This document shows, piece after piece, positions 13,286 through 52,509 of a stretch of 64,000 nucleotides of DNA; positions within the stretch are counted from its first letter, which is position 1, and each line of letters begins with the position of its first letter. The notes beneath the pieces were generated by a model that saw nothing but the letters and a program-made list of their open reading frames with translations, was not told the origin of the DNA and ran no database searches. The translations under genes and the position numbers were made by a program. This DNA is from Antedon bifida. Lineage: Eukaryota > Echinodermata > Crinoidea > Comatulida > Antedonidae. The stretch lies in assembly GCA_963402885.1 (NCBI GenBank), contig OY727099.1, positions 16,077,001 through 16,141,000 of the forward strand. Reading direction: 5' to 3'.

Positions 13286-14426
13286 GATACTATATACTAC
13301 ATAAAGCATTTCATGTAAAGTTAATCTGGGGAAGTACATTTAGGAGATGAGAAAGTGAGGAAAGAAATATGATTTAAGGTAGAAAAATCCTTGTATAATA
13401 AGAAAAATCTGGAATTACTTGGGATTCTTGGTCTTTTTTAAACAGAGGGATAAATAAAAAAGAGTTATATAGATACCACTACTGCACTTAACATTAATCA
13501 CAAGGGAGGTCGAAAATTAGAGTTAATCTGGAGATGGTGTAACTCATCACATATTGATTGGCAGCATTCAGTGAATGAATTCAATGAATTGTGAATGATT
13601 ACTAAACAAACAGATTTTCAATAGCAAGATGACAATGCTTGGGAATTTAAAATTGATGTTTTTGCTTCTCGTTGAAATATGAGGGGATCCAGCGATGGAT
13701 TTTGACTGTCGCACTATGATTGAGAATGCAACTATAGGGCTGGAGGCCAGGGAGCCTCTTGAGCTGTGAAAAGTGCAAAAAGTCACATTTGTGCAAATAA
13801 CCACATTTGTGCAAACATGTTGCCTTCAAATGTGCAAACAAGCACATTTGTGCAAATATGTTACCCTCAAATGTGGAAATTTGTAAAAATAATTGTAGTT
13901 TGAATCAATTTTTGTTGATATGTGTAGGGTTATAATATGAATACTCGCATTGTTCTATACTTTTAAAACATACCACTTAATTTGAATGCATTTTCCTCTC
14001 AAATTGTGATAAAAAATGATCACGCATATTACTTCTGCTGCATGTGTGACAAATATGTGGTCATGCATGTGTTTTTTTCAAAATTCGTGTTTCATTAAAA
14101 ATCAAATGCGGGACCGTCCTGCACGATGCAAGATGGTTGGTAACTATGTGGCTAAAAGCAGATAAAGAAACACACTCCAGCTCCAGTTGACGTGTCAGAA
14201 AAAAGGAAATTTTCATGAATTTTGATAGTATTTCCGAAATTAGAAAGTGTTTCTCAACTGATTTGTGTTTTTCCTCATATCTCAGCTTCTACAACATATG
14301 AAAATCTCTATAATGTTTCAACCTTTGTTTATGTTATTGTTGCTTATTTGAATTTATTATTATAGTTTATTATGTTTAAATTCAATCTGTTAGTGGCGGT
14401 TTCATCGCTGTTTCAACGTGATTTTG
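13286..14426. other. Intron 2 DNA with a small CACATTTGTGCAAA repeat
   Basis: Positions 13784-13880 hold an imperfect tandem repeat of CACATTTGTGCAAA-type words. Otherwise I see only AT-rich DNA without coding. Positions 14265-14300 (GATTTGTG...CTCATATCTCAGCTTCTAC) resemble 35987-36010, on the far side of the composite satellite region. Confidence 0.5.
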
Positions 14427-14499
14427 GGGCGCAGGATTGGTCATAGCAATTAATAGCAAACTATATAGCCATCAAATCACTAAGGCGCAGGATTGGTCA

Positions 14500-15440
14500 T
14501 AGCAATAAATAGCAAACAAATAGCTGTGTAAATGCTATACTTGATACAGCAAACATAGCAATAGAATAGCAAATAAATAGCTGTATAATTGCTATACTTG
14601 ATACAGCAATAATAGCAAATAATAGCAAACAAATAGCTGTATAATTGCTATACCTGATACAGCAATAATAGCAAATAATAGCAAACAAATAGCTGTGTAA
14701 TTGCTATACCTGATACAGCAATAATAGCAAATAATAGCAAACAAATAGCTGTATAATTGCTATACCCGATACAGCAATAATAGCAAGTAATAGCAAACAA
14801 ATAGCTGTGGAATTGCTATACCTGATACAGCAATAATAGCAAACAAATAGCTGTATAATTGCTATACCTGATACAGCAATAATAGCAAGTAATAGCAAAC
14901 AAATAGCTGTGTATATGCTATACAAAACAGGCTGAAAATAGCCTAGGGATAGCTGTTCTATCACTATCCTACTGTGACACATTGGTCACTTAGCAATAAT
15001 AGCAAATAATAGCAAACAAATAGCTGTATAATTGCTATACCTGATACAGCAACAATAGCAAATAATAGCAAACAAATAGCTGTGTAATTGCTATACCTCA
15101 TACAGCAATAATAGCTGTATAATTGCTATACCTGATAGCTGTGTAATTGCTATACCTTATACAGCAATAATAGCAAATAATAGCAAACAAATAGCTGTAT
15201 AATTGCTATACCTCATACAGCAATATAATAGCAAATAATAGCAAACAAATAGCTGTGTAATTGCTATACCTGATACAGCAATAATAGCAAATAATAGCAA
15301 ACAAATAGCTGTATAATTGCTATACCTGATACAGCAATAATAGCAAATAATAGCAAGTTGAAATAGCTTGCAGTTGCTATAATTGATATAGCCAGGCTGA
15401 AAATAGCCTTGGGATAGCTTTTGTATTATAAACAGCAAAC
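14500..15440 (+). repeat. 56 bp tandem array (AATAGC-rich)
   Basis: The unit is built from ACAGCAATAATAGCAAATAA, TAGCAAACAAATAGCTGTAT, AATTGCTATACCTGAT; successive starts at 14603 and 14659 give 56 bases. About 15 copies, with shortened units near 15110-15180 and a spacer at 14930-14995. Long minus-strand open frames here come from the repeat's composition and are not genes. Confidence 0.9.
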
Positions 15441-15817
15441 AAATACCTGTGCAATTGCTTCACACCACCTATACAAAACCACTCTACAAAACAGGCTGCA
15501 AATAGCCTTGGGATAGCTGTTATATCACTATCCTACTGTGACACATTGGTCACTTGCCTGAAACCTCAGCTATAGCTGCTATAGTTGCTATATTTTAACT
15601 ACATCATACCATGTCAGAATGTAGTCATAGTTAAAGCCAAACAATAAAAAAATTACACAATGCTACACTTAAACTGTGTATACTTAAAGGCCAGGTGCGG
15701 GCAAGAAATTTCTATTGATCATACATTTCAATAATCATCGATCTATAGTTTCCCCTATGTTTCATAATTTTTGGGATTTTCTTTGTGTTACACGAGCTTG
15801 TTGAAAATAACCAGTTA

Positions 15818-18800
15818 GGGTGGTCAGATCTTGGCGGTTTACATCTGGAGTGATGTTTTTTTATGGGTATACACGTCAGGCATTTCACATGATGGTGGTT
15901 AGATCTTGGCGGTTTACATCTGGAGTGATGTTTTTTTTATGGGTATACACGTCAGGCATTTCACATGATGGTGGTTAGATCTTGGCGGTTTATGTCACGA
16001 TTAATGGTTTTCTTGGTCAGATCTTGGCGGTTTACATCTTGAGTGATGTTTTTTTTATGGGTATACACGTCAGGCGTTTCACATGAGGGTGGTTCAATCT
16101 TGGTGGTTTACACTGGAGTGATGTTTTTTTTTTATGGGTATACACGTCAGGCGTTTCACATGAGGGTGGTTAGATCTTGGTAGTTTACATCTTGAGTGAT
16201 GTTTTTTTTTATGGGTATACACGTCAGGCGTTTCACATGAGGGTGGTTCAATCTTGGTGGTTTACACTGGAGTGATGTTTTTTTTTATGGGTATACACGT
16301 CAGGCGTTTCACATGAAGGTGGTTAGATCTTAAAGGTTTACATCTGGAGTGATGTTTTTTTTTAAGGTTATACACGTCAGGCGTTTCACATGAGGGTGGT
16401 TAGATCTTGGCGGTTTACATCTGGAGTGATGTTTTTTTTAAGGTTATACACGTCAGGCGTTTTACATGAGGGTGGTTAGATCTTGGCGGTTTATGTCAGG
16501 ATTAATGGGGTTTTTTTAAGGTTATACATGTCAGGCGTTTTACATGAGGGTGGTTAGATCTTGGCGGTTTACACTGGAGTGATGTTTTTTTTTAAGGTTA
16601 TACACGTCAGGCGTTTTACATCTTGGCAGTTTACATCTGGAGTGATGTTTTTTTTTTAGGTTATACACGTCAGGCGTTTTACATGAGCGTGGTCAGATCT
16701 TGGCGGTTTACATCTTGAGTGATGTTTTTTTTAATGGGTATACACGTCAGGCGTTTCACATGAGGGTGGTTCAATCTTGGCGGTTTACATCTGGAGTGAT
16801 GTTTTTTTTAAGGTTATACACGTCAGGCATTTTACATCTTGGAAGTTTACATCTGGAGTGATGTTTTTTTTTTAGGTTATACACGTCAGGCGTTTTACAT
16901 GAGCGTGGTCAGATCTTGGCGGTTTACATCTTGAGTGATGGTTTTTTTTATGGGTATACATGTCAGGCGTTTCACATGAGGGTGATTCAATCTTGGCGGT
17001 TTACATCTGGAGTGATGTTTTTTTTTAAGGTTATACACGTCAGGCGTTTTACATCTTGTCGGTTTACATCTGGAGTGATGTTTTTAGGTTATACACGTCG
17101 GGCGTTTTACATGAGGGTGGTTAGATCTTGGCGGTTTACATCTGGAGTGATGTTTTTTTTTAGGTTATACACGTCAGGCGTTTTACATGAGGGTGGTTAG
17201 ATCTTGGCGGTTTACATCTGGAGTGATGTTTTTTTATAGGTTATACACGTCAGGCGTTTTACATGAGCGTGGTCAGATCTTGACGGTTTACATCTGGAGT
17301 GATGTTTTTTTTATGGGTATACACGTCATGCGTTTCACATGAGGGTGGTTAGATCTTGGCGGTTAGCATCTAGAGTGATGTTTTTTTTTAGGTTATACAC
17401 GTCAGGCGTTTTACATGAGGGTGGTTAGATCTTGGCGGTTTACATCTGGAGTGATGTTTTTTTTATGGGTATACACGTCAGGCGTTTCACATGAGGGTGG
17501 TTAGATCTTGGCGGTTTATGTCAGGAGCGTTTTACATCTTGGCGGTTTACACTGGAGTGATGTTATTTTTTTTAGATTATACACGTCAGGCGTTTTACAA
17601 GAGGGTGTTCAGATCTTGGCGGTTTACATCTGGAGTGATGTTTTTTTATGGGTATACACGTCAGGCGTTTCACATGAGGGTGGTTAGATCTTAGCGGTTT
17701 ATGTCAGGATTAATAGTTTTTTTTAAGGGTATACACATCAGGCGTTTTGCATGAGGGTGGTTAGATCTTGGCGGTTTACATCTAGAGTTATGTTTTTTTT
17801 AAGGTATACACGTCAGGCGTTTTACATGAGGGTGGTTAGATCTTGGCGGTTTATGTCAGGATTAATGGGTTTTTTTTAAGGGTATACACGTCAGGCATTT
17901 TACATGAGGGTGGTGATATCTTGGCGGTTTACATCTGGAGTGATGTTTTTTTAAGGGTATACACGTCAGGCGTTTCACATGATGGTGGTTATATCTTGGC
18001 AGTTTACATATGGAGTGATGTTTTTTTATGGGTATACACGTCAGGCGTTTCACATGAGGGTGGTTAGATCTTAGCGGTTTATGTCAGGATTAATAGTTTT
18101 TTTTAAGGGTATACACATCAGGCGTTTTGCATGAGGGTGGTTAGATCTTGGCGGTTTACATCTGGAGTGATGTTTTTTTTAAGGTTATACACGTCAGGCG
18201 TTTTACATGAGGGTGGTTAGATCTTGGCGGTTTACATCTGGAGGGATGTTATTTTTATGGGTATACACGTCAGGCGTTTCACATGAGGGTGGTTAGATCT
18301 TGGCGGTTTATGTCAGGAGCGTTTTACATCTTGGCGGTTTACACTGGAGTGATTTTTTTTTTTTAGATTATACACGTCAGGCGTTTTACAAGAGGGTGTT
18401 AAGATCTTGGCGGTTTACATCTGGAGTGATGTTTTTTTATGGGTATACACGTCAGGCGTTTCACATGAGGGTGGTTAGATCTTAGCGGTTTATGTCAGGA
18501 TTAATAGTTTTTTTTAAGGGTATACACATCAGGCGTTTTGCATGAGGGTGGTTAGATCTTGGCGGTTTACATCTGGAGTGATGTTTTTTTTAAGGTTATA
18601 CACGTCAGGCGTTTTACATAAGGGTGGTTAGATCTTGGCGGTTTATGTCAGGATTAATGTTTTTTTTAAGGGTATATACGTCAGGCATTTTACATGAGGG
18701 TGGTGATATCTTGGCGGTTTACATCTGGAGTGATGTTTTTTTAAAGGTATACACGTCAGGCGTTTCACATGATGGTGGTTATATCTTGGCAGTTTACATA

Positions 18801-18955
18801 TGGAGTGATGTTTTTTTAAGGGTATACACGTCAGGCAATTTACATGAGGGTGGTTATATCTTGGCAGTTTACATCTGGAGTGATGTTTTGTTAAGGGTAT
18901 ACACGTCAGGCGTTTCACATGAGGCGTTTCACATGAGGGTGGTTAAATCTTGGAT
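15818..18955 (+). repeat. ~75 bp minisatellite array, about 40 copies
   Basis: The unit reads TATACACGTCAGGCGTTTTA, CATGAGGGTGGTTAGATC, TTGGCGGTTTACATCTGG, AGTGATG, then a variable T run. Variants (GGTTTATGTCAGGATTAATG) and partial units show a higher-order pattern; for example 17490-17730 and 18270-18510 are near-identical multi-unit blocks. Length differences are mostly in the T run. Its open frames (SWRFTSGVMFF type) are repeat artefacts. Confidence 0.93.
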
Positions 18956-18959
18956 TTAA

Positions 18960-19670
18960 TTGTGTTTTGAAAGTTTAGTAAATATAAATTTATTCATTTA
19001 GTCTCCATACAGCAGTTACGTGTCGTTTACAATGATGATACAAAAAAAAACCCTACAATGAACAGAAATTAACATTTGCAAAATTAACAAATGACATTAT
19101 AAAGTTAAACATAAGAAATAAAAGAATGACAAGGCATTTAAAAATCAACTGATACAGTAAAAAAAAAAAAATAAATAAATAAAAAAAAAAAAATAAATAA
19201 ATACAATTAAGTACAAACAAAAACAAACTACAACTTATCGTGATGGTTCATTCTCACTGATTGAATTATCAAGCTCTGAACGCAATTCAATTATTGCGAA
19301 TGTCTCGTATTTGTTAGCAATGACGATGTGTTTAATTTGGTTCAGAAAACCTAAATCACAATGTACTACTTTGTCATTACATTATATCAATTACAGCCAT
19401 ACTTATTAACTGAACAATCAAACAAACTGATAACTCCTATATACAGCTTGCAACAGACGGATGCTAGGTTATTGGCAATACTGTAATACAGTACTTAAAG
19501 CTGTTTGAGTTATAAAAACAACTACCATCAACATTATAGAAACATCTTCCAACCACATACTTATACACATTGCAATGAAATTAATTTTTTATATTGTAAA
19601 TCGGTGTTTTGGGATATATGCAACCCACAATTGCAATTAACATGTTGCATCAAATTTTTTTGGACAGAAA
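18960..19670. other. A-rich intron DNA, nothing firm
   Basis: No coding. Positions 19157-19203 form an (A)n/(AAAT)n stretch. There is no clear element end. Confidence 0.5.
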
Positions 19671-19679
19671 CTTAAAGAA

Positions 19680-19900
19680 TCTGAAGTATCAACTGAATCC
19701 CCCTTTCAAGAAATTTTGAACTGTCAACTAAACCTAACCGTCGAAATAATCTCAAGCATCAAATGAACCCAACCCTCTAAATAATCTCAACTATCATCTG
19801 AACCCCACCCTCTTAATAAACCAAACCCTTTAACCAACTGAACCTAACCATTTAAATAACCTCCACTGTGTCAACTACACCTAACCCTTTATTAGTATAC
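19680..19900 (-). repeat. Short array of the 35 bp unit, complementary orientation
   Basis: Degenerate copies of AACTGAACCTAACCCTCTAA and ATAATCTCAACTATC, the reverse complement of the 28282-29450 array. They are followed at about 19925-19985 by one reversed ~75 bp unit (ACCACCCTCATTT ... CCTGGCATGTAT). Confidence 0.75.
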
Positions 19901-20067
19901 ACAGTGTATTCAATGTGTATTGTCCTAACCACCCTCATTTAAAACCCCTGGCATGTATCCTAAAAAAAAAATTACTCCACATGTATATTCAGATATTTTT
20001 GTAATGAGAATTACTGGATTTTTTCTCTATTATTGAGAGCAAGGAACAAGTGTATTTGTCCTTAATA

Positions 20068-21777
20068 ATTAGTTATCCGCTTGGTAGAGCGGATAACTTC
20101 TTGTTATTGTATGGGATCAATATTTTTGGTTATCGGCAACTTATAAAGTTGCGGATAACCCTTGTGATTGTAAATATCTTTTTTTTTTTTGGTTATCCGC
20201 AACCGTAAGGTTTTGCGGATAACCCTTGTTATTGTAAATATCTTTTTTTTTTTCATCTTCTTTGTTCTTCTTTCTTTCCCGGAATTTTGTTGCACGCATA
20301 TCTGTCATCCTTGTCAACATAAGATTGTATAACTTTGTCATAAGATTGACCTGTAGCTGTAGATGTGCAGGAAACTTTGTTATATGACGTAAGAGTCGCA
20401 TAGCGCAAGTTACGCGCGATTTAATGAATTTCAATGATTGGTCATAGATTATAAACCAAAAGTCATTTTGTATTGACACTTGGTGAAAATTTAAGTCATA
20501 TCAAGGGCAAACTTTCTATGGATTAAAAATGGCATGTTTTACAAGAAGTTACGCGCGCACGCGCATTTAAAATTTCAAAATGCGCAAAATTATTTTCTAA
20601 TCAACTTTCTACGCTGATCATGACATTTTGAGCATGTCAAAAATTCCCACGCGCGCGAAAAAATTTACGCGTAAGGTGCGCACGGAGCATGAAAATCATG
20701 TGTTTTTTCTTGAATTGTGATTTTCTAGCCTTTCCTAGTCATTTAAAAAAAGATTGACATCATTTCAAATTAAAATGACGTCATACGAACACGTTGATTT
20801 ATACCATTTGCGCGCGTTTTAGTTGCAAAAGTGACAAAATATTGTCAAAATTTTCCTATTTTTAATCTATTATAGCTCCTCAGGATCATCCACGACCCCC
20901 AATTTTTTTAATTTAATATGTAAGCAGATATGTTGTAGATATAAATTCATGCAGAATCTTTACCACTCGGATGTTATGACGTCATCGTATGGCCACACGA
21001 ATGTAAAATATAGAATTTTTTACTCTTTCGTTATTGCTCATCACATTAAATAGAGCGCATCTCGCTTATACGTATTCCATTTCCTCAGATATTTTAATAC
21101 TGTCTACGTCAATCAACTATCTTTCGCATGAATTAAAAATATTTTAATTTTTATGACGTCATCGTGCCTAAAAATGTAAATAACGTGGGTCACCTATTTT
21201 CATCTTTTCAGTAAATTTCAATCTGTTATAGCTCGTCAGAATAAAAAGTGATAATCATGATTAAAATGTTTTCTGGAAGCTATTGGATTGTAGATACGAA
21301 TTCATATAAATATTTTGCCAATCAGATGTTGTGACGTCATCATATGGCCAGTTGAATTCAAAAAGTCACATTTACATCTCTTGCGTAAAAGTTCATTGCG
21401 TTTAAACGAGAGCGCATCTCACTTTTACGTGCCCAAAATTTTTCAAATTTGTATTAATGTAATTAATTAGATAATTATCTTCTAAAATTGTTATTTTATA
21501 TGTCAATTTGATGACGTCATCATGTTAATAATTGGATTTAAAAGATGGGTCTCGTAATCTCGTCTATGCTACACTGTATATAACATATACAGTTTATTCT
21601 GTAAATACTGTAATATACTGTATGGTACAACATAGGTACAATTCAGCACTGTAAACATATTTATTTCATGTCATATGATGGCATAATAATTGTCGGCGTT
21701 CATATAATATAAACGTATGTGCATGTTGCGTTTGCGCGGATAACTAGAACTCGTCAAAGTGACGAGTTCAAATCTAG
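20068..21777 (+). repeat. Tandem ~1.5 kb unit, intron 2, unit 1
   Basis: It starts with hairpin words (GTTATCCGC...GCGGATAAC repeated three times with CTTGTTATTGT and T runs). Then come TTCTTTCTTTCCCGGAATTT, AATGGCATGTTTTACAAG, GTTACGCGCGCACGCGC and several TGACGTCA palindromes (about 20977, 21154, 21330, 21510). It ends GCGGATAACTAGAACTCGTC and GACGAGTTCAAATCTAG. No coding. It interrupts the composite element, whose flanking block resumes near 24284. Confidence 0.8.
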
Positions 21778-23362
21778 TTTTTCTGTATTATTAGTTATCC
21801 GCATTGAGCGGATAACTCCTTGTAACTGTCCTGTTTCATCATCTTTTTTTTTTTTCTGTATTCTTCTTTCTTTCTGTCATTTTTGTGTCTCGCGTAACTC
21901 AAAAACATGTAAACATAACATTTCATAACTGTGTCAACATGTGGGCATTTACGTGAAATTGTGCACCTCCTATTTTGAATGACGCAACATGACTTACGCG
22001 CGTTTTTACGAATTTCGCGTATTTAACATAGATTGAAAACCATATAACAATTTAATATGAAACTTGACAAAAGTTTAAGTTATATCTTGCGCTAACTGAC
22101 TATGGGGAAAAAATGGCATGTTTCACACGAAGTTACGCGCGCACACGCGTTTAAAATTTCAGAATGCAAAAAAATCAATTTCTAATCAACTTTCTACGCA
22201 TTTCATGTAATTTTAAGCATGTAAAAAATTCCCACGCGCGCGCATTTTTTTACGCGCATGGTGCGAACATAGCGTTGAAAACTTTTTTTGCGTGATTTAT
22301 GTTTTTTCAGCCTTTTCTAGTAATTTTACCAACTTTTAAACAATTTCGACTTAAAATTACGTCATACGGGCACGTTGAATTCGATAATTTACGTGCAGTT
22401 TTGATTAAAAAGTTAAAAAATTTGTCAAAATTCGTCAAAATTATGCCTTTTTTTAAACAGTCATAGATTCTAAACAACGAGGTGAACTTTTTTTAAATTA
22501 CATATTCTGGAAGTTGATGAGTTGTAGATATCGGATCATGAATCAATATGGCTAACTGGACATTGTGACGTCATCGTATGGCCACACGAATGAAAAATAT
22601 AGGATTTTTGTCTCTTTCGTTATTGCTCATCATATTCAATGGAGCGCATCACGCCTATCTGTATTCTTTTTTCTCCGAGATTTTAATATTGTCTAGGTCA
22701 ATCAACTATCTTACGCATGAGTTAAAAATATTTTAATTTTTATGACGTCATCATGCCTAAAAATTATAATTAACAGGGTTATTAATTTCATCTTTACAGT
22801 AAATTTTAATCTGTTATAGCTCGTAAGAATAAAAAGTGATAATTATGATTAAAACGTTTTCTGGAAGCTATTGGACTGTAGATACGAATTAATGTGAACA
22901 TTTTGCCAATCGGATGTTGTGAAGTCATCATATGGCCAGTTGAATAAAAAAAGTCGTATTTTCATATTTTGCATCATAGTTCATCACATTTAAACGAGCA
23001 TGCATCCATTCTACGTATTCAAATTTCTTCTACACGTTAATATGTTGTTGGTGAGATAATGTCCTTCCGAAATTGCTATCTTAGTGTTTAATTTTAATAC
23101 CGTCGCCATGTTAAAAATTGGAATAAACGGTGGGTCCCGTAATTTCACCTATTCTACACTGTATGTAATATGTATACAGATTATACTGTATATACTATAT
23201 GACACAAAATAGACAGAATTCAGCACTAACAAGATATGATATTCTTCAGTTCAGGTCATAATAACATAATCTTTTTCTGTGTGCAATATTCCAACGTATG
23301 ACGTGCACGTGGCGTTTGTCGTGCGGATAACTAACTCGTCAAAGTGACGAGTTTCATGTCTA
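21778..23362 (+). repeat. Tandem ~1.5 kb unit, intron 2, unit 2
   Basis: A head-to-tail copy of the preceding unit with one opening hairpin (AGTTATCCGCATTGAGCGGATAACT at 21794-21818). It has the same interior order and the same closing AACTCGTC..GACGAGTT palindrome (about 23333-23353). Divergence from unit 1 is substantial, so the array is not recent throughout. Confidence 0.8.
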
Positions 23363-24283
23363 GTTCTTCTTTCCTTCCTTCCTTTTTGTGAGTCGCGTTT
23401 CTCTAAAATGTGTAAACATAACATTTCATAACTTTGACAACATATGGGCATTTACGTGAAGTTGTGCACCTCCTATTTTTGAATGATGTCATAGTTGCGC
23501 AACGTGACTTACGCGCAATTTTAAGAATTTCAATGATTGATCATCGATTAAAAACCAAAAGTCATTTAGTATTGACACTTTGACAAAATTTAAGTCATAT
23601 CAGGGGCAAACTTTCTACGGATTAAAAATGGCATGTTTCACAAGAAGTTAAGCGCGCACGCGCATTTAAAATTTCAAAATGCGCAAAATTAATTTCTAAT
23701 CAACTTTTTATGCGTTTCTTGTCATTTTGAGCATGTCAAAAATTCCCACGGGCGCGCAATTTTTTACGCGCGCGGTGCGCACGTAGCATTAAAAACATAT
23801 TTTTTTCTCTTGAATTATATTTTTCAAGCCTTTCCTAGTAATTTTGAAAACAATTTAGACCTTTTCTAGTTTAAATGACGCCATACGAACACGTTGAATT
23901 AGACAATTCGTGCGCGTTTTTTATGAAAAAGCTTAAAAAATCGTCAAAATTATGTCTTTTTTAAAACAGTCATAGTTTCTAAAGTAAACCGTGAACCGTT
24001 TATTTTTATTACAAAATCTAGAAGTTGATGAGTTGTAGATATCGGATCATGCATCGATAAGGCTAAAAAAACATTGTGACGTCATCGTATGGCCACACGA
24101 ATGTAAAATATAGAATTTTTGTCTCTTTCGTTATTGGTCATCACATTCAATGGAGCCCATCACGCTTATCTGTATTCCTTTTTCTCCTACATTTATATAT
24201 TGTGTAGGTCAATCAACTTTCTTTAGCATGAGATAAAAATATTTTAATTTTTATGACGTCATCATGCCTAAAAATTTTAATAT
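23363..24283 (+). repeat. Tandem ~1.5 kb unit, intron 2, truncated unit 3
   Basis: It follows unit 2 directly with TTCTTCTTTCCTTCCTTCC and lacks the right part: it stops after TTATGACGTCATCATGCC and AAAAATTTTAAT (about 24283). The composite element then resumes with CATCATTTATAAGCAACCTT, the same phrase as at 34787. Confidence 0.75.
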
Positions 24284-24775
24284 TTCTTCATCATTTATAA
24301 GCAACCTTATGCTTATTTGTTTCTTCTCATAATATGCACTGCAATTTTGAGATGTAAAATTGTTCAGTATTGTTTGTGTTAAATGTGTTAAATGCTTTCA
24401 TATGTTTAATGAATAAATGAAGTTACAACATAGACAATGGGTCTATATAGCTTCATGCCACCATCCTTATACAAATCAATGTCTCCAAGGTTAGGAAAAG
24501 GTGATTATTGCACCCATCTGTACCAGGGCCAAAACTGGTCCAGCCTGGATAAAATCGGTCCGGGCAGTAGGACTGTTTTTGGCAGCCAAATATGGTCCGG
24601 TCTTACAAATATATGGTGCGCAAAATTAGTCATAATGTATATTTCATTCAAAAATGCCATGATTATTGAAAATTACGAGGTTTTATTTGTTATTTTAATA
24701 TTATAAATTAAGCCTATTTTTTAATTATCAACTTAGCAACTCATCAATAATTAGTACTAACATACATATCAACAG

Positions 24776-26790
24776 CAACCACAACTGCTTTTCCAGCTAT
24801 AGCAAAAATAGCTGCTATAGCAGTAAGACTTAACCCTTAGACTTCAATAGCACAATAGCATATCAGTAGCAACCACATCTGCTTTTCGAGCTGCTATAGC
24901 GGTGAAACACTTAGCCCTTAGACTTCAACAGCATAATAGCATATCAGTAGCAACCACAACTGCTTTTTGAGCTATAGCAAAAATAGCTGCTATAGCAGTA
25001 AGAATTAATTCTTATACTTCAATAGCACAATAGCATATCAGTAGCAACCCCAACTGCTTTTCCAGCTATAGCAGAAATAGCTGCTATAGCGGTGAAACAC
25101 TTAACCCTTACACTTCAATAGCATAATAGCATATCAGTAGCAACCACAACTGCTTTCCCAGCTATAGCAAAAATAGTTGCTATAGCAGTCAGACTTAACC
25201 CTTAGACATCAATAGCACAATAGCATATCAGTAGCAACCACATCTGCTATTCGAGCTATAGCAGAAATAGCTGCTATAGCAGTGAAACACTTAACCCTTA
25301 GACTTCAATAGCATAATAGCATATCAGTAGCAACCACATCTGCTTTTTGAGCTATAGCAGAAATAGCTGCTATAGCAGTGAAACACTTAACCCTTACACT
25401 TCAATAGCATAATAGCATATCAGTAGCAACCACAACTGCTTTTTCAGCTATAGCAAAAATAGCTGCTATAGCAGTAACACTTAACCCTTAGACTTCAATA
25501 GCATAATAGCAAATCAATAGCAACCATAACTGCTTTTCCAGCTATAGCAAAAATAGCTGCTATAGCAGTAACACTTAACTCTCAGACTTCAATAGCACAA
25601 TAGCATATCAGTAGCAACCACAACTGCTTTTCCTGCTATAGCAGAAATAGCTGCTATAGCGGTGAAACACTTAACCCTTACACTTCAATAGCATAATAGC
25701 GTATCAGTAGCAACCACAACTGCTTTTCCAGCTATAGCAAAAATAGCTGCTATAGCAGTAACACTTAACCCTTAGACTTCAATAGCATAATAGCAAATCA
25801 ATAGCAACCATAACTGCTTTTCCAGCTATAGCAAAAATAGCTGCTATAGCAGTAACACTTAACCCTTGGACTTCAATAGCATAATAGCATATCAGTAGCA
25901 ACCATAACTGCTTTTCCAGCTATAGCAAAAATAGCTGCTATAACAGTTACACTTAACCCTTAGAGTTCAATAGCATAACAGCATATCAGTAGCAACCACA
26001 ACTGCTTTTCGAGCTATAGCAGAAATAGCTGCTATAGCAGTGAAACACTTAACCCTTCAAATTCAATAGCAAACTAGCTTATCAGTAGCAACCACAACTG
26101 CTTTTCCAGCTATAGCAGAAGTAGCTGCTATAGCAGTGAAACACTTAGCCCTTACACTTCAATAGCATAATAGCTTATCAGTAGCAGCCACAATTGCTTT
26201 ACGAGCTATAGCAAAAATAGCTGCTATAGCAGTCACACTTAACTCTCAGACTTCAATAGCACAATAGCATATCAGTAGCAACCACAACTGCTTTTCCAGC
26301 TATAGCAAAAATAGCTGCTATAGCAGTTGCACTTAACCCTTAGACTTCAATAGCACAATAGCATATCAGTAGCAACCACAACTGCTTTTCCTGCTATAGC
26401 AGAAATAGCTGCTATAGCGGTGAAACACTTAACCCTTACACTTCAATAGCATAATAGCAAATCAATAGCAACCATAACTGCTTTTTCAGCTATAGCAAAA
26501 ATAGCTGCTATAGCAGTAACACTTAACCCTTGGACTTCAATAGCATAATAGCATATCAGTAGCAACCACAACTGCTTTTCGAGCTATAGCAAAAATAGCT
26601 GCTATAGCAGTAACACTTAACTCTCAGACTTCAATAGCACAATAGCATATCAGTAGCAACCACAACTGCTTTTCCAGCTATAGCAGAAATAGCTGCTATA
26701 GCAGTGAAACACTTATCCCTTAGAATTCAATAGCACAATAACATATCAGTAGCAACCACAACTGCTTTTCCAGCTATAAGCAGAAATAGC
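24776..26790 (+). repeat. ~95 bp tandem array, about 21 copies
   Basis: The unit is CTTAACCCTTAGACTTCAAT, AGCATAATAGCATATCAGTA, GCAACCACAACTGCTTTTCC, AGCTATAGCAAAAATAGC, TGCTATAGCAGTAACA (94-97 bases). GCTATAGC occurs twice per unit and is itself palindromic, so each unit can form a small hairpin. The unit alternates GTAACA and GTGAAACA endings, giving a partial higher-order pattern. Same orientation as 35170-35750. Confidence 0.92.
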
Positions 26791-26959
26791 AATATTAGCA
26801 TAAATAGCATGGTTAAAGCAACAAATAGCAAAAAAAACCTGTATGCTACAACACAAGTATAAGCTCTGAAAACTCCAAAATAACCAATCCTGCGCTTTAC
26901 TCCATCAAATAGCATAACCATAGATAGCAAGAAAATACTGTAGCTGTGCAAATTGCTAT

Positions 26960-28020
26960 ACTGTACTTGATAAAGCATAAATAGCAAATAAATAGCTGTG
27001 TAATTGCTATACAGTAGAACCTTTGTTTTACGTACCCGTTCCCTTGATTTTACGTACGCTTAAAATGACCGATGACGTCATCATTTTCTTACATTGAGGG
27101 CGCAATTTAACAACAACAAAGCACAAACCCATGGCTGTGTGAGGAACTCATGTGCATTCCCCTACAACATACAGCGACTGTTTTTATTGATAGAAAATAC
27201 AACATTGATATTTTATTTATAACACTTTATTTAGACTAAATCGCACAGCCTGTATATACTGTACTTTTCTAGGCCTCACATCTTGCTAGGCCTGCTAGCC
27301 TGGCCTAGATTGGTCTAGCCTAGGCCTAGGAAGGGCCTAGCTAATCTAGTGACCACCTGCATGCTGTAGGCAAACACGGCAGCCTTTTTTTTAGCTACGA
27401 TCTACGTATTTGGGGGTCAATTTAAGGTCAACCTTGATTTTACGAATCCCTTGTTTTACGTACACCTTTCGGTCCATGGTAAAATGGAGGTTCTACTGTA
27501 CTTCATATAGCAAAAATAGCAAATAAATAGCTGTGTACAGTAATTGCTATACTTGATATAGCCATAAATAGGAAATAAATAGCTGTGAAATTGCTGTACT
27601 TGATAAAGCCAATAAATAGTAAATAAATAGCTGTGTAATTGCTGTACTTGATATAGCCATAAATAGCAAATAAATAGCTGTGTAATTGCTGTACTTGTTA
27701 TAGCCATAAATAGTAAACAAAGAGCTGTGTAATTGCTATACTTTATATAGCCATAAATAGTAAATAAATAGCTGTGTAATATACTTGATATAGCCATAAA
27801 TAGCAAACACATAGCTATGCAATTGCTATACTTGCTAATAGCCATAAATAGCAAACAAATAGCTGTGTAATTACTACACTTGATATAGCCTTAAATAGCT
27901 GTATAATTGCTATATACTTGATATAGCCATAAATAGCAAAAAAAAAGTTGTGCAATTGCTATTCGTCATAGCCATAAATAGCAAACAAATATGTAGCTGT
28001 GCAATTGCTTTTCACCAGCT
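26960..28020 (+). repeat. AATAGC-type tandem array of copy 2
   Basis: Units of roughly 48-60 bases such as AAATAGCTGTGTAATTGCTA followed by TACTTGATATAGCCATAAAT, related to the 56 bp array at 14500-15440. It is split by a pogo-like MITE at 27012-27498. Confidence 0.85.
27012..27498. mobile_element. 487 bp pogo/Tigger-like MITE with TA duplication
   Basis: Ends CAGTAGAACCTTTGTTTTAC and GTAAAATGGAGGTTCTACTG are inverted repeats, flanked by TA (27010-27011 and 27499-27500). The CAGTAGAACC start is characteristic of pogo/Tigger termini. Removing it with one TA restores the array text ATTGCTATACTT, which confirms insertion. No transposase. It carries a dense TAGGCCTAG cluster at 27270-27345. Confidence 0.85.
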
Positions 28021-28281
28021 ATAACAATAGCTGGAATAGCTGTTATACTACTATCCTACTGTGACACATTGGTCACTTGCCTGAAACCTTAGCTATAACT
28101 GCTATAGTAGCTATATTTCAACTATACCATACCATGTCTGAATGTAGTCACAGTTATAAAGCCAAATAATATAACAATTACACAATACTACTATTACTAA
28201 CTATAAAATTAGATACACCAAATACACATTGATTGAATACACTTAAACTGTGTATACTTAAAGTTGACACAGTGGAGGTTA

Positions 28282-29450
28282 TTTAAATGGTTAGGTTCAG
28301 TTAATAGTTGAGATTATTTAGAGGGTTAGGTTCAGTTAATAGTTGAGATTATTTAGAGGGTTAGGTTCAGTTCATAGTTGAGATTATTAAGAGGGAGATT
28401 CAGTTGATAGTTAAGATTATTTAGAGGGTTAGGTTTAGTTGACAGTTGTTTTTAGGGTATACATGTTAGGCCATCTACATGAAGGTGGTTATATCTTGGC
28501 CGTTTACATCTGGAGTGATTTTTTTGTTAAGGCTATACACGTCATGCGTTTTACATTAGGGTGGATAGGACTTGGCGGTATACATCTGGAGTGATGTTTT
28601 TATTAGGGTATACACGTTAGGCGATCTACATGAAGGTGGTTATATCTTGGCGGTTTACATCTGGAGTGATGTTTTTTTAAGGCTATACACGCCAGGCGTA
28701 TGGATGCATATGAGATTATTTAGAGTGTTAGTTTTATTTAGAGGGTTCGGTTTATTTAGAGGATTAAGTTCAGTTGATAGTTGAGATTATTTAGAGGGTT
28801 AGTTTATTTGATAGTTTAGGTTATTTAGAGGGTTAGCTTTTTAGTGATGTGGATTACATCTTGAGTGATGTTTAATTTGAGTGACGTTTTTTAGGGTATT
28901 ATACATGTTATACATAGATACACTGCACATTGAATACACTTAAACTGTGTATACTTAAAGGGTTCATAGTTGAGATTATTTAGAGGGTTAGGTTCAGTTG
29001 ATATTTGAGATTACTTAGAGGGTTAAGTTCAGTTGATAGTTAAGATTCTTTAGAGGGTTAGGTTCAGTTGATAGTTGAGATTATTTAGAGGGTTAGGTTC
29101 AGTTGATAGTTAAGATTATTTAGAGGGTTAGGTTCAGTTGATAGTTGAGATTATTTAGAGGGTTAGGTTCAGTTGATAGTTGAGATTATTTAGAGGGTTA
29201 GGTTCAGTTGACAGTTGAGATTATTTAGAGGGTTAGGTTCAGTTGATAGTTGGGATTATTTAGAGGGTTAGGTTTAGTTGATAGTTGAGATTATTTAGAG
29301 GGTTAGGTTTAGTTGATAGTTGAGATTATTTAGAGGGTTAGGTTTAGCCGACAGTTCAAACATTATTAAAAGGGGTGATTCAGTTGATACTTGAGATTAT
29401 TTAGAGGGTTATAGGTTCAGTTCATAGTTGAGATTATTTAGAGGGTTAGT
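28282..29450 (+). repeat. 35 bp minisatellite with a few 75 bp units
   Basis: The unit is GATTATTTAGAGGGTTAGG then TTCAGTTGATAGTTGA (35 bases), in about 30 positions. Three or four 75 bp-type units sit inside at 28445-28700, and a short non-repeat stretch with AAACTGTGTATACTTAAAG at 28940. The reverse complement forms the array at 33690-34490. GAGGGTTAGG looks telomere-like by chance only. Confidence 0.9.
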
Positions 29451-29774
29451 CCGTTTTTTGGGGTAATACATGTTAGCCGTTTTATATGAAGGTGGTCATA
29501 TCTTGCTAGTATAAAGTTATCTTTTTTTATAGTAATGGAAATATAGTGGACAGTTTTGGGCTTAATTAGAATTTCTTTTAAAATATTATAATAAGGGATG
29601 TGTAATTTGAATTTATGTGTATCTGATTGAGTTAGTCTATTGCCATTATTAGTTAAGAATAACATAATGCCATTGAATGAAAGTACATCACTTCTTAAGC
29701 TAGTCACCTATTTTTCCAATAATAGTTATTTTATACCCATAATAGTTTGGCCAGGAACATTAATATTCTTCATA

Positions 29775-32700
29775 GTACAGGCTATATATGGTTTGACCTT
29801 GAAAAAATTCTAATAAAAGGTCTTTTGGTATTTTCTTGTAGCTTTAGGTGTCAATAATTACCAAAAAATTTTGCAGCCTTCTAGTTGCTGTGTTAGTGAG
29901 ATATTGAGGGTCAAAGGTCAGTGACCTTTTTGTGGCATTTGATGGCTCATAACTCCTCAACTCCTGGGTTTAAAAAGACAAATGTGGTTTCTATATCTAT
30001 GTTTTGGTTGGTCAAACAACAAAATAAAGTTTTTGCAAATTTCGGGTTACTTGTGCCATTGGTCAGATAGTCGGGTCAAAGGTCATTGACCTTTATTCAT
30101 TAATAACTACTGCTAGTGTAGGACCTGAGTAAGATTTGTATGCATTCAATTTAGGAGAGAATATCTCAACTGTTATAGGATAATTTGACCCCAAGGAACA
30201 ACATGGGGTATGTGTCAAATTCGTTATCTGGGGCGAACATGCCCAAAATCAGGGTCAAGGATTAGAAATGTGTGGTTCTTATATCTCGACAACCACTTGT
30301 CATACAGATTTGCTTTTGGTGTTAAATTGTTCAGAATATACATATTTATATTCGGTCTAACACAACTTTTACCCAAAAAAATGACCGGAAATGCTTTTAC
30401 TGACCTTTGACCAAAAAACACATTTTCGATTTAAATTATTATTTAAAATGTCAATGGACACACTGTATGGTATCAAATGAAAGCATATACAATATGCTAC
30501 CCATTGCTACCCAATTTGTATTGAACATTTTTTAATTAGGAATCTAATCTTATGGAAAATGTGCCTAATTTGATTACTTTTATACAAAAAATGAATATTT
30601 AGTAGCGTAATTGTTGTGCTTATTTATATAATGTTAAATAATTTTAAATAAGTGTTTGGAAGAACTATTTGGTATCAAATAAAAGCCCATACAATATTCT
30701 AGCTATTGCTATCCAATAAATAAAGTAAGTAAGTAAGTAATAAAAATCTGTAATTATGATGCTACTTTGGTGAAAAATGTGCATATTTTATTGCTTTTTG
30801 ACAAAAATGGGTATACATTACCTGATAATTTATTTTGGTTTATTTATGATATTAAATAATTCAAATGTTTGAAAAGACATATTTGGTATCAAAGGAAAGC
30901 ACATACAATATGCTATCCATAGCTACCTAACTTGTATTTAATTATGAGATGTTATTTTTGGAAAATATGCATATATTTTATTAAACTTAGACAAAAATGA
31001 GTATAAATTAATGTAAGTTTATTTTGGGTGAAATAATTCTATCGTTGTAATGAAATATTTGGTATAAAAAAGAAAAGACTTAGTTGTAGTTTATTAAGTT
31101 CTTTATTTGGTAGACCAAACAAAATGGCATTGCAGTAGTCTAACCGTGATGTTATTAGTGCATGGACAAGTTTAATAAGCGAGGAGTGGGTTAAGGATTT
31201 GCGAATTGATCTTATGTTACGAAGGTGGTAGGTATCAGATTTACTAATGTTGTTGATATGTCTGGACATAATCATTGCTGAGTTAAATACAACTCCGATA
31301 TATCTAACCTCCAACGATGATGTGATTGATGTTTCTAGCAATGGCCAATTTCTTATAAGTGTTTAGAATGAAGAAATAAGATTTCTGTTTTACCAGGGTT
31401 AAAAAGAGCATGTTTTTAGTTAGCCAATCCTGAACATCAACAACACAAGCTTCGATAACCGACTTCGCCTCATTAAACTCTGCTGAATTAAAGCTGATGT
31501 ACAGTTGTGTATCATCTGCGTACACATGATATTGGACACAATGTCTCTTAATGATATCACTCATGGGCGAGATGTAAACTAAAAACAATACTGGACTCAG
31601 TATTGATCCTTGAGGAACACCGCATTTCAGGTCGATAGAGGTGGATTTGATATTACCAATCTGGACCTGCTGCTTCCTAGAAGACAAATATGACTTGAAC
31701 TAATTTAGAGCAGATCCACGGATACCAATAGACAAGAGTCTTGCAATAATAATGGAATAGTCCATGGTATCAGAAGCTGCCGACAGGTTGAGGTACACAG
31801 AAAAAAGACAATTACCTTTATCCAGAGCTAAAATAATATCATTATGCACCTTGAGAATGGCTGACTCTGTACTGTGGTGCTTTCTATATGCTGATTGAAG
31901 AGGGTAGAACAGAATATTGTCGTCAAGAAAATGTATGAGATCTAAAGCAACGCATTTCTCAAGTATGCAAGTATGATCCAGTGAAGGCTTCATTAAAATA
32001 AGTGTAACTAGACCCAACTTCAAATCATCAGGAAAGGTCGTACCAGTTGATAAAGATAAATTAATAATAATTCTAAATACTGAAGTCAATTATGCACATT
32101 TTCCATAAAGTTATATTCCTAATTAAAAATTTTCAATACAAGTTGGGTAGCAATGGGTAGCATATTGTATATGCTTTCATTTTATACCATACAGTGTGTC
32201 CATTGACATTTTAAAGAATAATTTAACCCGAAAATGTGTTTTTTTGGTCATTTTTTGGTCAAAGGTCAGTAAAAGCATTTCCGGTCATTTTTTGGGGTAA
32301 AAGTTGTGTTAGACTGAATATAAATATGTATATTCTGAACAATTTGACACCAAAAGCAAATCTGTATGACAAGTGGTTGTCGAGATATAAGAACCACACA
32401 TTTCTAACCTTCGACCCCGATTTTGGGCATGTTCGCCCCAGATAACGAATTTGGCACATATCCCATGTTGTTCCTTGGGGTCTAATTATCCTATAACAGT
32501 TGAGATATTCTCTCCTAATTTGAATGCATACACATCTTACCAAGGTCCTAGACTAGCAGTAGTTATTAATGAATAAAGGTAAATGACCTTTGACCCGACT
32601 ATCTGACCAATGGCACAAGTAACCCGAAATTTGCAAAAACTTTATTTTGTTGTTTGACCACTAAAACATAGATGTAGACACCACATTTGTCTTTTTAAAC

Positions 32701-32910
32701 CCAGGAGTTGAGGAGTTATGAGCCATCAAATGCCACAAAAAGGTCACTGACCTTTGACCCTCAATATGTCACTAACGCAGCAACTACAAGGCTGCAAACA
32801 TTTTTTGGTATTTATTCACACCTAAAGCTACAAGAAAATACCAAAAGACATTTTATTAGAATTTTTTCAAGGTTGCATAGGATAAATGTCACATATAGCC
32901 TGTACTATCA
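29775..32910. repeat. 3.1 kb inverted repeat with ~0.8 kb arms
   Basis: Left arm about 29775-30570 (AGGCTATATATGGTTTGACC ... ATGGAAAATGTGCC) returns in reverse complement at about 32090-32910, with high identity throughout (for example CACAAAAAGGTCACTGACC vs GGTCAGTGACCTTTTTGTGG). The centre, 30570-31050, continues with ~200 bp tandem repeats (TTTGGTATCAAA..AAAGC at about 30470, 30670, 30885, 31055), then a LINE fragment. The class is unknown; the arms contain the dispersed monomer (30240-30440, 32230-32430). Confidence 0.82.
31039..32089 (-). pseudogene. Non-LTR retrotransposon (CR1/L2-like) reverse transcriptase fragment
   Basis: Three minus-strand open segments in different frames read in order through a LINE reverse transcriptase. 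31700-32089 has QSAYRKHHSTESAILKVHND then LNLSAASDT, where family members have LDLSAAFDT, so the motif A aspartate is Asn and the Phe is Ser. 31304-31687 has LKCGVPQGSILSPVLFLVYI and the catalytic YADDTQLY. 31039-31341 has RSIRKSLTHSS, HALITSRLDYCNAILFGLP and ends near NKELNKL, the thumb region. An in-frame stop lies before 31687, and there is a frame change near 31320-31370. Endonuclease and 5' parts are missing. It is a dead copy in the loop of the inverted repeat. CR1/L2 placement is from family resemblance. Confidence 0.88.
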
Positions 32911-33689
32911 TGTAAACTGGTGATTTACAAAACATCACCTAGTTTTAAGTACAGATTGATATGAAATTAACATGAAGACATTGCAGACAGTATAACTTTC
33001 TTAGATATCATTTAAATAGGTAGTTATTATTGTTCCACAAAGGAAGTGAATGATTTGATTTGATTTGATTTGGAACAACAAATATGAGCATAACATTATG
33101 TACGATGACCACAATTATCTTAATACCAAAATTAACCTATTCGAAAAAAAACATGCATTCCAAATTCCAAAAAAGGCAAAATAACCTGGAATAGATAGAA
33201 TGTTCCTAGAGTATTTCATAAATAATTTTTGACAATCTAAAACTCTTGTTCAATGCAATATTTCATTTCAAGTGGTAACCTGTATTATAAAAACCTTCAG
33301 ATGGAAGTTGTTAAAATCGCATACAGACTTTGGAGTATGGATACATCTGGTACGATCAAAAAGTTGAAAATAATACAAGTTTGTTAAGGATTTTAAAATT
33401 ACACTTCGTGATTTAGAAAAACAAAAATATGTTGAGCAGTTTCAAATCCATTGAAAATTAAAGTATTTAAAGTTATTTAAATCAAAGATTGTAATTTCAG
33501 TTTAATCAAAGATAAAGTTCATTTCATGTTACTTTGCCCTTTTTTTTTAGAAATGTCAGAACTAATTATATTCCTAAATTTTATTGTACATTTCCTAATA
33601 AAGTTAAGCTCAAACTATTAATGATTAATAACAATATTATATAAAGGTCGTAAACTTAATTTTTTAGCTCTCGAAATACAATATTATAA
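32911..33689. other. Intron 2 DNA with a (TTTGA) microsatellite
   Basis: Positions 33053-33073 are a TGATTTGATTTGATTTGG run of the kind seen at LINE 3' tails. There is no coding and no clear element ends. Confidence 0.5.
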
Positions 33690-34490
33690 ACTGAACCTAA
33701 CTCTCTAAATAATCTCAACTATCAACTGAACCTAACCCTCTAAATAATATCATGTATGAACTGAACCTCAGCCTCTAAATAATCTCAAGAATCAACTGAA
33801 TCACCCCTTTTAATAATTTTTGAACTGTCAACTGAACCTAACCCTCTAAATAATCTCAACTATCAACTAAACCAAACCCTCTAAATAACCTCAGCTATGA
33901 ACTGAACCTAACTCTCTAAATAATCTTATCTATGAACTGAAACTAAGCCTCTAAATAATCTCAAGTATCAACTGAATCACCCCTTTAAATAATTTTTGAA
34001 CTGTCAACTAAACCTAACCCTCTAAATAATGTCAATTATCAACTAAACCAAACTCTCTAAATAACCTCAGCTATGAACTGAACCTAACCCTCTAAATAAT
34101 CTCAACTATGAACTGAACCTAACCCTCTAAATAATCTCAACTATGAACCGAACCTAACCCTCTCAATAATCTTAATTATGAACTGAACCTAACCATCTAA
34201 ATAATCTCAACTATGAACTGAACCTAACCCTCTAAATAATCTTAACTATCAACTGAACCTAACCCTCTAAATAATCTCAACTATCAACTGACCTCCCTCT
34301 AAATAATCTCAAGTATCAACTGAATCACCCCTTTTCATAATTTGTCAAAGTATCAACTAAACTTAACCCCCTAAATAATCTCAACTATCAACTGAACCTT
34401 ACCCTCTTAATAATCTCTGATCTATCAACTGAACCAAACCTAACCTCAGCTATGAACTGAACCTAACCATTTAAATAATCTCAACTGTGT
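33690..34490 (-). repeat. 35 bp minisatellite, complementary orientation
   Basis: About 23 units of AACTATCAACTGAACCTAAC and CCTCTAAATAATCTC, the reverse complement of the 28282-29450 array. The two can pair in one transcript. It is followed by ACTGTGTCAACTAAATC, mirroring the edge of the first array (GTTGACACAGTGG at 28263). Confidence 0.9.
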
Positions 34491-35169
34491 CAACTAAATC
34501 TAACCCTTTATTAGTATACACAGTTTAAGTGTATTCAATGGGTTAACCACCCTCATGCAAAACGCCTGGCGTGTATAGCCTAAAAAAAACATCACTCTAG
34601 ATGTATATTCAGAAAATTCTTTTAATGAGAGTTATTTATATTGGAATGTTTCATTATCTATGCTATTATTGAAAACAAGGAACAAGTGAATTGTCCTTAA
34701 TTAAATGCAATCTTATTTCGATGCCATGTCAATACTACTTAATTAATTTTTAAGTTTCCATTTCCTGATCATTGCTATTTGCGCATCACTTATAAACAAC
34801 CTTATATTATTTGTTGTTTCTCATCCGTTTAATGAATAAATGAAGTTACAACCTGGAGGAAATGGGTCTGTAGCTTCATGCCACCCTCTTTATACAATTC
34901 AATGCCTCCAAGGTCAGGATAAGTTGATTATTACACCCATCTGTACCAGGGTAAAATTGGAAACTGAGCATGCTCAAACACTCATCCCACCCTCATCTCT
35001 TACATCCAGGCTTCAAAAATACATAAAAAATAACTGCACATACATTCAGTGTCATCAACCAACTGTGTATGATTCAAGATGAATTCCACCTCACGATCTA
35101 AACAAAATAACAAGGTACTGGATTCAGCTGCTTTTCAGAATTGCATGCTGCATACAATATTCCTACTGA

Positions 35170-35750
35170 ATGGGAAATAGCAGCTATAGCAGTAACACTT
35201 AACCCTTAGACAGTAGCAACCACAACTGCTTTCCGAGCTATAGCAGAAATAGCAGTAACACCTAAGCATAGAATTCAATTGTATAATAGCATATCAGTAG
35301 CAACCACAACTACTTTCTAAGCTGTAGCAGAAATAGCAGCTATAGCAGTAACACTTAACCCTTAGACTTCAATACCACAGTAGCATATCAGTAGCAACCA
35401 CAATAGCTTTCTAAGCTATAGCAGAAATAGCAGTAACACCTAAGCATAGAATTCAATTGCATAATACAGTAGCATATCAGTAGCGACCACAACTGCTTTT
35501 TAAGCTATAGCAGAAATAGCTACTATAGCAGTAACACTTCACCTTTAGACTTCAATAGCATAATAGCATATCAGTAGCAACCACAACTACTTTCTAAAGC
35601 TATAGCAGAAATAGCAGCTATAGCAGTAACACTTAACCCTTATACTTCAATAGAATAATAGCATATCAATAGCGACCGCAACTGCTTTCCGAGCTATAGC
35701 AGAAATAGCAGCTATAGCAGTCCCTTACACTTGATAGCATAATAACAGTC
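35170..35750 (+). repeat. ~95 bp-type tandem array, copy 2
   Basis: Six or so diverged units with GCATATCAGTAGCAACCACA, CAGAAATAGCAGCTATAGC and AGTAACACTTAACCC, in the same orientation as 24776-26790. Some units are shortened (CCTAAGCATAGAATTCAATT variants). Confidence 0.85.
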
Positions 35751-36419
35751 CCACTGTCTATTTGACCAATAATGGCACAACTAGCATTAACTAGCATGAT
35801 CATAGCAACAAAATAGCCACAAAATCATTCTGTATGTCTTAACACAGAAAAAAACAGATACAAACCCAAAACAGCTAATCCTGCGCTTTACTCGACTTTG
35901 GTGGAAAAGTATATGTTTTGAAGGTCAAGAAGTCTAAATACAGTATTTTAAAGTTCGCCTAATGGCTGCCATAACATTTACAACAGATTTGTCCTCATAC
36001 CTCAGCTTCTACATTATTTAAGGAAATGATTTTAGTGGCAAAGTGTATGTTTTGAGGGTCAAGAAATTTAAATACAACTTTTTGAAGTTCACACAATGAC
36101 CACCATTTTGATTGTCAAAATGGCCACCATAAGCTAATTTATGAGCTACTATGATTATGATTTTGCTAAGCCTTTGTTTTGAAGGTTACAGAATAAAAAC
36201 AAATTCAGCATTTGAAATACAGTTGGAAAGTGATGATGAGAATAAGTCAATATGTTGGTGATAAATATAGTATAGTATAGTGAAGTCTGTTAGGGCTGAA
36301 ATAAGGGTGTTTTGTTCAGTTTCTTCCAAAAGCACCAAATTTGGTATACAGGTTGCCCACCATCTACAAATTAAATTTTTGATGGGCGCCAAGCAAAATG
36401 ACACGACATGACATTTACA

Positions 36420-44190: not shown

Positions 44191-44213
44191 TACTGTATAG
44201 CTGTATGGGGTGC

Positions 44214-51291: not shown

Positions 51292-51335
51292 AGGTGACTG
51301 TATCGAAATATTGCAGGTTGAGTTGTCATTTACTT

Positions 51336-52481: not shown

Positions 52482-52509
52482 CTGTGTCTGGACTCATGAT
52501 GGTGTGAGA

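Follow-up and report, generated by a model that had tools for sequence, protein, structure and literature searches.

TU of sea urchins and FB of Drosophila are modular foldback elements, whose outer domains consist of tandem repeats, and which make target duplications of 8 bp and 9 bp, respectively. Elements of the foldback type have been described before, although the tandem repeats that they carry are for the most part unexplained. Further systems are described in the available portions of the publications cited here. Tm1 of root-knot nematodes, a Mutator/Foldback element of the Phantom type of Mutator-like elements (MULEs), has 7-bp asymmetric ends located outside of its inverted repeat; such ends were called unusual, though they are found in other Mutator-like elements (PMC3169594). 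The authors who described Tetris suggested that it belongs to the Mutator superfamily (PMC4079207). Some repeats of Galileo bind the DNA-binding domain of its transposase, and the binding of repeats was described as untested in Foldback and Phantom (PMC3688188). Here, we describe a family of minisatellite-bearing elements in the genome of the crinoid Antedon bifida (315.6 Mb in 27 contigs), starting from a 64,000-nucleotide stretch of contig C12 (C12:16077001-16141000), which is further called the window. The two main elements in the window, A and B, are best explained as non-autonomous members of one cut-and-paste DNA transposon family with foldback-like composite arms, to which we give a probability of about 0.82.

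Nested and dispersed elements A and B

The preliminary description of the window presented A and B as two adjacent structures, but the data showed that they are nested, with A located inside B. B starts at position 14428, is broken by A (14478-26902), continues at 26911 and ends at 35893, while the sequence CATCAAAT found on either side of A, at 14470-14477 and 26903-26910, forms a perfect 8-bp target duplication. The nesting follows from the fact that the removal of A together with one CATCAAAT joins the flanks into the left end of B (14428-14477, then 26911-35893). All blocks and ends named in the preliminary description were present where it had placed them, and the tandem arrays in the window were confirmed with Tandem Repeats Finder. 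The inverted repeat GCGCAGGATTGG marks the left end of B at 14429 and the left end of A at 14485 (forward strand), and it is found on the reverse strand at 26884, in agreement with the claim that the ends are oppositely oriented. Among the markers of single-copy blocks, CACATTGGTCACTTGCC was located at 15542 and 28065, AAACTGTGTATACTTAAAG at 15671, 28245 and 28942, AAGGAACAAGTG at 20041 and 34677, and TTCATGCCACC at 24452 and 34875. The supposed third start indeed has GCGCAGGATTGG on the forward strand, at 43466, and its own arrays; it belongs to a diverged relative (subfamily C), the right end of which was looked for and not found.

To the window copy of A were added 12 loci fetched from the genome, 11 of them with both ends and one (C8:32489494) without a left end in its stretch, which gave a set of 13 copies, 12 of them complete. 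The family termini are CACTAAG followed by GCGCAGGATTGG on the left, and CCAATCCTGCGC followed by TTTACTC on the right, which when read inward is GAGTAAA and then GCGCAGGATTGG; each terminus combines an asymmetric end of 7 bp with an inverted repeat of 12 bp. The complete copies are 6.5-14.8 kb long, and no two of their left flanks are alike. The structure is not a product of chance, because these termini are common to all 12 copies with both ends, which are located at different sites and are each flanked by an exact target duplication of 8 bp, never longer. The 16-base terminal pattern, with at most one mismatch, was found at 127 genome sites versus 28 for its reversed control; 100 of these sites, 63 exact and 37 with one mismatch, make up the list used below, and 27 further sites outside it have one mismatch. 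A genome search with the right end of A gave 23 matches, counting the one in A, and the identity was at least 90% in 21 of these; 13 right ends outside the window were 100% identical over the last 106 bases, ending there or one base later.

Paralogous empty sites were found in four comparisons, three for A in B and one for a copy on contig C9. In three B-like copies (L029, L031 and L034) the target stretch of A is uninterrupted and contains a single CATCAAAT, and at the locus L067 the target site of the C9 copy is found empty, with one of the 8 bases changed. Nested insertions provide exact empty-site controls. The mean pairwise identity, calculated among copies aligning over at least 90% of a block, was 99.3% for block 2 (7 copies), 99.6% for block 3 (9 copies), 99.5% for block 4 (6 copies) and 99.6% for the tail (13 copies), while the copies outside this count were more diverged or broken, with pieces of blocks 2 and 3 at identities down to about 90% in two copies. 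Since the comparable single-copy blocks average 99.3-99.6% identity, the spread was recent. The elements form a dispersed, recently spread mobile-element family, which shows that transposition seeds minisatellites across the genome. The mobile family proposed in the preliminary description is borne out by the fixed module order and the precise junctions, and by the target duplications and paralogous empty sites.

From left to right, A consists of a terminus, a 56-bp array, block 1, an array of about 75-bp units, blocks 2 and 3 around a 35-bp array, a captured repeat, block 4, a 94-bp array, a tail and a terminus. B has the same frame, but with the 35-bp unit amplified, and the 35-bp arrays of its inner arms are mutually inverted (89.6% identity over 491 columns), as in foldback elements. 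The features are as follows.

Element A
14478..26902, forward: element A, complete, 12,425 bp (both termini, 8-bp duplication, paralogous empty sites)
14470..14477, forward: target duplication of A, left copy, CATCAAAT
14478..14496, forward: left terminus, in which the asymmetric 7-mer CACTAAG precedes the inverted repeat GCGCAGGATTGG (common to 12 of the 12 copies fetched with a left end)
14499..15356, forward: 56-bp minisatellite, ATAGCA-rich, 15 units in A
15357..15816, forward: single-copy block 1, containing CACATTGGTCACTTGCC and AAACTGTGTATACTTAAAG
15817..18938, forward: minisatellite of about 75-bp units, about 40 units
18939..20060, forward: single-copy blocks 2 and 3, separated by a short 35-bp array (19724-19819) and containing AAGGAACAAGTG
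20061..24290, forward: captured insert of 4.2 kb, TTATCCGC-hairpin repeat, also present elsewhere in the window
24290..24761, forward: single-copy block 4, containing TTCATGCCACC
24762..26790, forward: 94-bp minisatellite, ATAGCA-rich
26791..26902, forward: tail (112 bp) and right terminus, with inverted repeat CCAATCCTGCGC (26884-26895) and 7-mer TTTACTC (26896-26902)
26903..26910, forward: target duplication of A, right copy, CATCAAAT

Element B
14420..14427, forward: left target duplication GATTTTGG (7/8 match to 35894-35901)
14428..14477, forward: left end, begins GGCGCAGGATTGG (alignment to L029, L031 and L034)
26911..35893, forward: rest of B
27012..27498, no strand: separate insertion, a CAGTAGAACC-ended element with TA duplication (read directly), presumably pogo/Tigger-like
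27502..27991, forward: left subterminal array, units of about 47 bp
28271..29449, forward: left inner arm with 35-bp, 75-bp and 35-bp arrays
29450..33684, no strand: interior with 775-bp inverted repeats (93.8% identity) around a reverse-transcriptase fragment, probably nested insertions
33685..34507, reverse: right inner arm with a 35-bp array, a copy of the left arm in inverted orientation
34508..35160, forward: right single-copy blocks, with AAGGAACAAGTG at 34677 and TTCATGCCACC at 34875; the left edge carries the AAACTGTG block as an inverted copy
35160..35721, forward: right subterminal 94-bp array
35877..35893, forward: right terminus AATCCTGCGCTTTACTC
35894..35901, forward: right target duplication GACTTTGG

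Subfamily C
43466..44850, forward: diverged relative with left-end GCGCAGGATTGG and ATAGCA-rich arrays

The TTATCCGC-hairpin insert was present in eight of the 13 copies, and gave no match in the other five, two of which keep both flanking blocks in a repeat-free version; the change between the two states is not a clean insertion. Tandem-like runs of this hairpin repeat (TTATCCGC...GCGGATAA) are located at 20061-24290 (in A), 48787-49402 and 57758-64000, on both sides of the Helitron-type genes of the window.

Minisatellite arrays and the ATAGCA word

Tandem repeats covered 38-91% of each of the 13 copies (one of them incomplete), compared to 0.7% and 3.1% of two background stretches, and the four main unit lengths in the family were 56, 75, 35 and 94 bp. 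When the units of 11 copies were coded as letters (the rearranged C9:19476 copy and the incomplete C8:32489 copy were left out), different copies had a common order of units, with some runs lost or repeated, which indicates that the arrays change by blocks of units. Unit types seen more than once accounted for 167 of the 198 units in the 56-bp array and for 66 of the 119 units in the 94-bp array. The 56-bp array has 12 to 30 units in ten complete copies other than A, and four in the C9:19476 copy. In the latter copy (L026 and L027) the left end together with the left flank is present twice, about 9.9 kb apart, which is a tandem duplication. The view in the preliminary description that the minisatellites grow and swap is supported in its first part by the gains and losses of blocks between copies, while the swap is better read as the amplification of different ancestral units in each subfamily, the 75-bp unit in A and the 35-bp unit in B.

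In the five subterminal arrays, which belong to A, B and C, the word ATAGCA reached densities of 49.0, 48.8, 27.0, 35.6 and 21.2 per kb, while 4.5-8.3 were expected from first-order simulations. It was absent from all three internal arrays, occurred three times in the 460 bases of block 1 (6.5 per kb), and had a density of 0.3 per kb in the background. These data could tentatively suggest that the subterminal minisatellites are ATAGCA-based arrays of putative transposase-binding sites rather than passengers, although we consider this somewhat less probable than the opposite. Such a candidate role suits the arrays by analogy, because some Galileo repeats were shown to be bound by transposase, according to the available part of that report (PMC3688188). 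On the other hand, the sharing of ATAGCA could reflect descent rather than function, and the arrays of A and B are related. If the sites were indeed bound, the array length would tune the frequency of movement of each copy, and the subfamilies would have evolved differing repeat units around one shared word. The proposed role is directly testable, because the arrays adjacent to the termini share a word that is absent from the internal arrays, and because the copies are recent (about 20 right ends with at least 90% identity) while their array lengths differ strongly.

Source of the transposase

In the proposed mechanism a transposase supplied in trans would recognize the terminal inverted repeat, and probably also the subterminal ATAGCA sites, pair the ends, and insert the element via an 8-bp staggered cut. 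Between the moves, the arrays could become shorter or longer through slippage, unequal exchange or gap repair, while the short single-copy blocks would persist because they are not tandem. The 8-bp duplication is within the 8-11 bp range of Mutator-like elements, and an asymmetric terminal motif outside of a subterminal inverted repeat, which is a feature of the Tm1 type and not of all MULEs, is also present. As to the foldback features, long inverted arms with tandem repeats are found in B and weakly in A, and the target duplications, which measure exactly 8 bp in all 12 copies with both ends, are within the range of 7-10 bp. Because the 8-bp duplication is combined with asymmetric 7-bp ends outside of the inverted repeat, as in Tm1, a Mutator-like mobilizer, of the Phantom type, is the likeliest candidate by this analogy, and we see the odds of such assignment as about even.

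Several observations weigh against the reading of A and B as non-autonomous foldback-like transposons. The arms of A are less symmetric than those of classic foldback elements, with inverted matches between the arms of only about 60 bp. The duplication around B is imperfect, with 7 of 8 bases matching between GATTTTGG and GACTTTGG, and B is missing its first six bases, the terminal CACTAA present in its relatives. The solo copy L029 is without a matching duplication, several exact left ends (17-20 bases) are isolated in unrelated sequence, and a search for excision footprints keeping both ends gave no matches. The 13 copies contain no transposase-like frame of their own of at least 110 amino acids, a threshold which frames with introns or shorter exons could escape; this agrees with the absence of transposase noted in the preliminary description. 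The domain searches of the genome found no transposase tied to the family termini, and the class is inferred from anatomy. Also, two Mutator-like candidates had to be set aside. The MULE found at L058 and L059 was rejected as the mobilizer, because it has its own inverted repeats of about 83 bp, different termini, and 9-11-bp duplications (best matches). A FLYWCH-MULE located 2.3 kb from a left end (L060) was not counted, because it lies outside the element, within flanks of CAGTAGAACC-type repeats (L060 383-4951).

Some further observations concern individual loci. The MULE of L058 and L059 is about 7 kb long, has a weak SWIM match, is 99.5% identical between its two sites, and carries a piece of the B right tail. 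The protein of the L060 FLYWCH-MULE had 43 genome matches, and among the first 14 compared with the termini only L060 was near one. At L043 (C10:22728700-22729140) an 8-bp repeat, CGATATTC, flanks a 22-base stretch in which the last 17 bases of the right end are contained; this is footprint-like, but as a single case it was not used as evidence.

The domain searches gave 58 matches for P, 39 for hAT, 33 for MULE and 18 for Merlin, and these were placed against the 100 listed terminal sites and 19 of the 34 tail matches. Two of the 33 MULE matches were at most 12 kb from an exact terminus, and their positions place both outside the element. Four others were about 3.3 kb from B-type tail matches, and the two of these four that were read are L058 and L059, the different MULE described above. 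A long copy on C7 has a 20-kb interior with reverse-transcriptase genes and a DDE_Tnp_4 transposase gene, which we take to be of the PIF/Harbinger type, and these were read as nested insertions. Short stretches at additional termini and tails (20 in total), 8.5 kb beside three of them, and 6 kb beside three left ends without a right end gave no linked transposase; in the latter check, L067 gave no family match. A comparison of seven transposase frames of this genome against the window and every fetched locus gave matches beyond the source locus only among the four P loci and, separately, between the two MULE copies. The KDZ family had no matches in this genome, and control genomes equally gave none, which makes this negative uninformative.

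The canonical target duplication of P elements is also 8 bp long, and a P family is present in the genome, at L054 and 14 other places, with 15 equal-scoring matches at 3.4e-23 and frames of 638-642 amino acids, two compared copies of which are 100% identical. Galileo shows that foldback arms can arise within the P superfamily (PMC3573991, PMC3688188; available portions), so that a P-type transposase could be considered as the mobilizer. However, none of the 58 P-domain matches was at most 12 kb from any listed terminus, exact or with one mismatch. The P family of L054, the only one with a placeable left boundary, begins near AACCATGGAGAAATAAG, which is quite different from the family termini, and the other three P loci read had no clear ends. 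Moreover, the available part of the Tm1 paper describes asymmetric terminal 7-mers in Mutator-like elements (PMC3169594). We consider a P-type mobilizer unlikely.

The mobilizer could also come from another group, such as hAT or Merlin, or be an undescribed transposase. In favor of this explanation, both hAT and Merlin are compatible with an 8-bp duplication, and no linked transposase of any class was found. One of the 39 hAT matches (C8:16050026, in a 173-amino-acid frame) is 0.8-0.9 kb from a facing pair of one-mismatch termini about 113 bases apart. However, no hAT match was at most 12 kb from an exact terminus, and the facing one-mismatch pairs, which are found at seven C8 places from 14715022 to 17449465, with 113-126 bases between the termini, are without the CACTAAG/GAGTAAA ends. 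In addition, the ends of hAT elements are usually symmetric and CAG-type. One of the 18 Merlin matches is about 9.5 kb from a solo tail, with other repeats in between, and only the tail resembles the family ends. We consider a mobilizer from this set improbable, to a similar degree as one of the P superfamily.

A rolling-circle origin (Helitron/Helentron type) has a very small probability. It is suggested by the Rep and helicase domains in the window (50197-54330) and by the short offset inverted repeats and minisatellites, which resemble those of DINE-1/Helentron-derived elements, but it is refuted by the exact 8-bp duplication in all 12 copies, because rolling-circle elements make no target duplication. 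The genes concerned are on the reverse strand, where the frame 52510-54330 contains the Helitron_like_N domain and the frame 50197-51525 the PIF1 helicase. A local duplication of satellite DNA without any mobile element, which the high repeat content of each copy could suggest and which the preliminary description had named as the alternative if the blocks and ends never co-occurred elsewhere, is refuted by the precise ends, the duplications and the empty sites, which occur on many contigs, and by the co-occurrence of blocks and ends in other copies.

Comparison with known foldback systems

As far as the literature searches show, the elements form a new family of a known, foldback kind, distinguished by long arrays of four main unit types and by clean evidence of recent movement; no description of it was found in the literature searched, which does not show that the family is unpublished. 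The statement in the preliminary description that no named family fits was too strong, because the foldback anatomy of Tetris, Tm1 and Galileo, as well as FB and TU, fits. The repeats of TU are about 15 bp long, and TU is likened to this family by description only.

The remaining comparisons follow the available portions of the cited papers. Tm1 resembles this family in its asymmetric 7-bp termini, composite arms with variable numbers of tandem repeats, mostly non-autonomous members, and nested insertions, and its duplications are mostly 9 bp (range 8-10), compared to 8 bp here. It differs in having units of about 14 bp in elements of 1.1 and 2.5 kb, while here units of 56, 75, 35 and 94 bp are found in elements of 6.5-14.8 kb, and in the FLYWCH-MULE gene carried by Tm1-A, while no linked gene was found here (PMC3169594). 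Galileo of Drosophila, which belongs to the P superfamily, is also foldback-like with internally repeated arms, but has 7-bp duplications and a known P-type transposase (PMC3573991, PMC3688188). In the Rehavkus and Phantom groups of MULEs, a minisatellite precedes the 3′ end (Rehavkus) or follows the transposase gene (aphid Phantom), and the duplications are 9 bp and 8-10 bp long, respectively, versus 8 bp here; in contrast to the copies described here, in which none was found, they encode a transposase (PMC6446971). Tetris of Drosophila virilis is likewise non-autonomous and modular, with tandem repeats in its arms, 8-10-bp duplications and no transposase found, as far as the available text tells, but its inverted repeats of up to 1.7 kb contain one unit of about 220 bp, while the left and right subterminal arrays of A differ from each other (PMC4079207).

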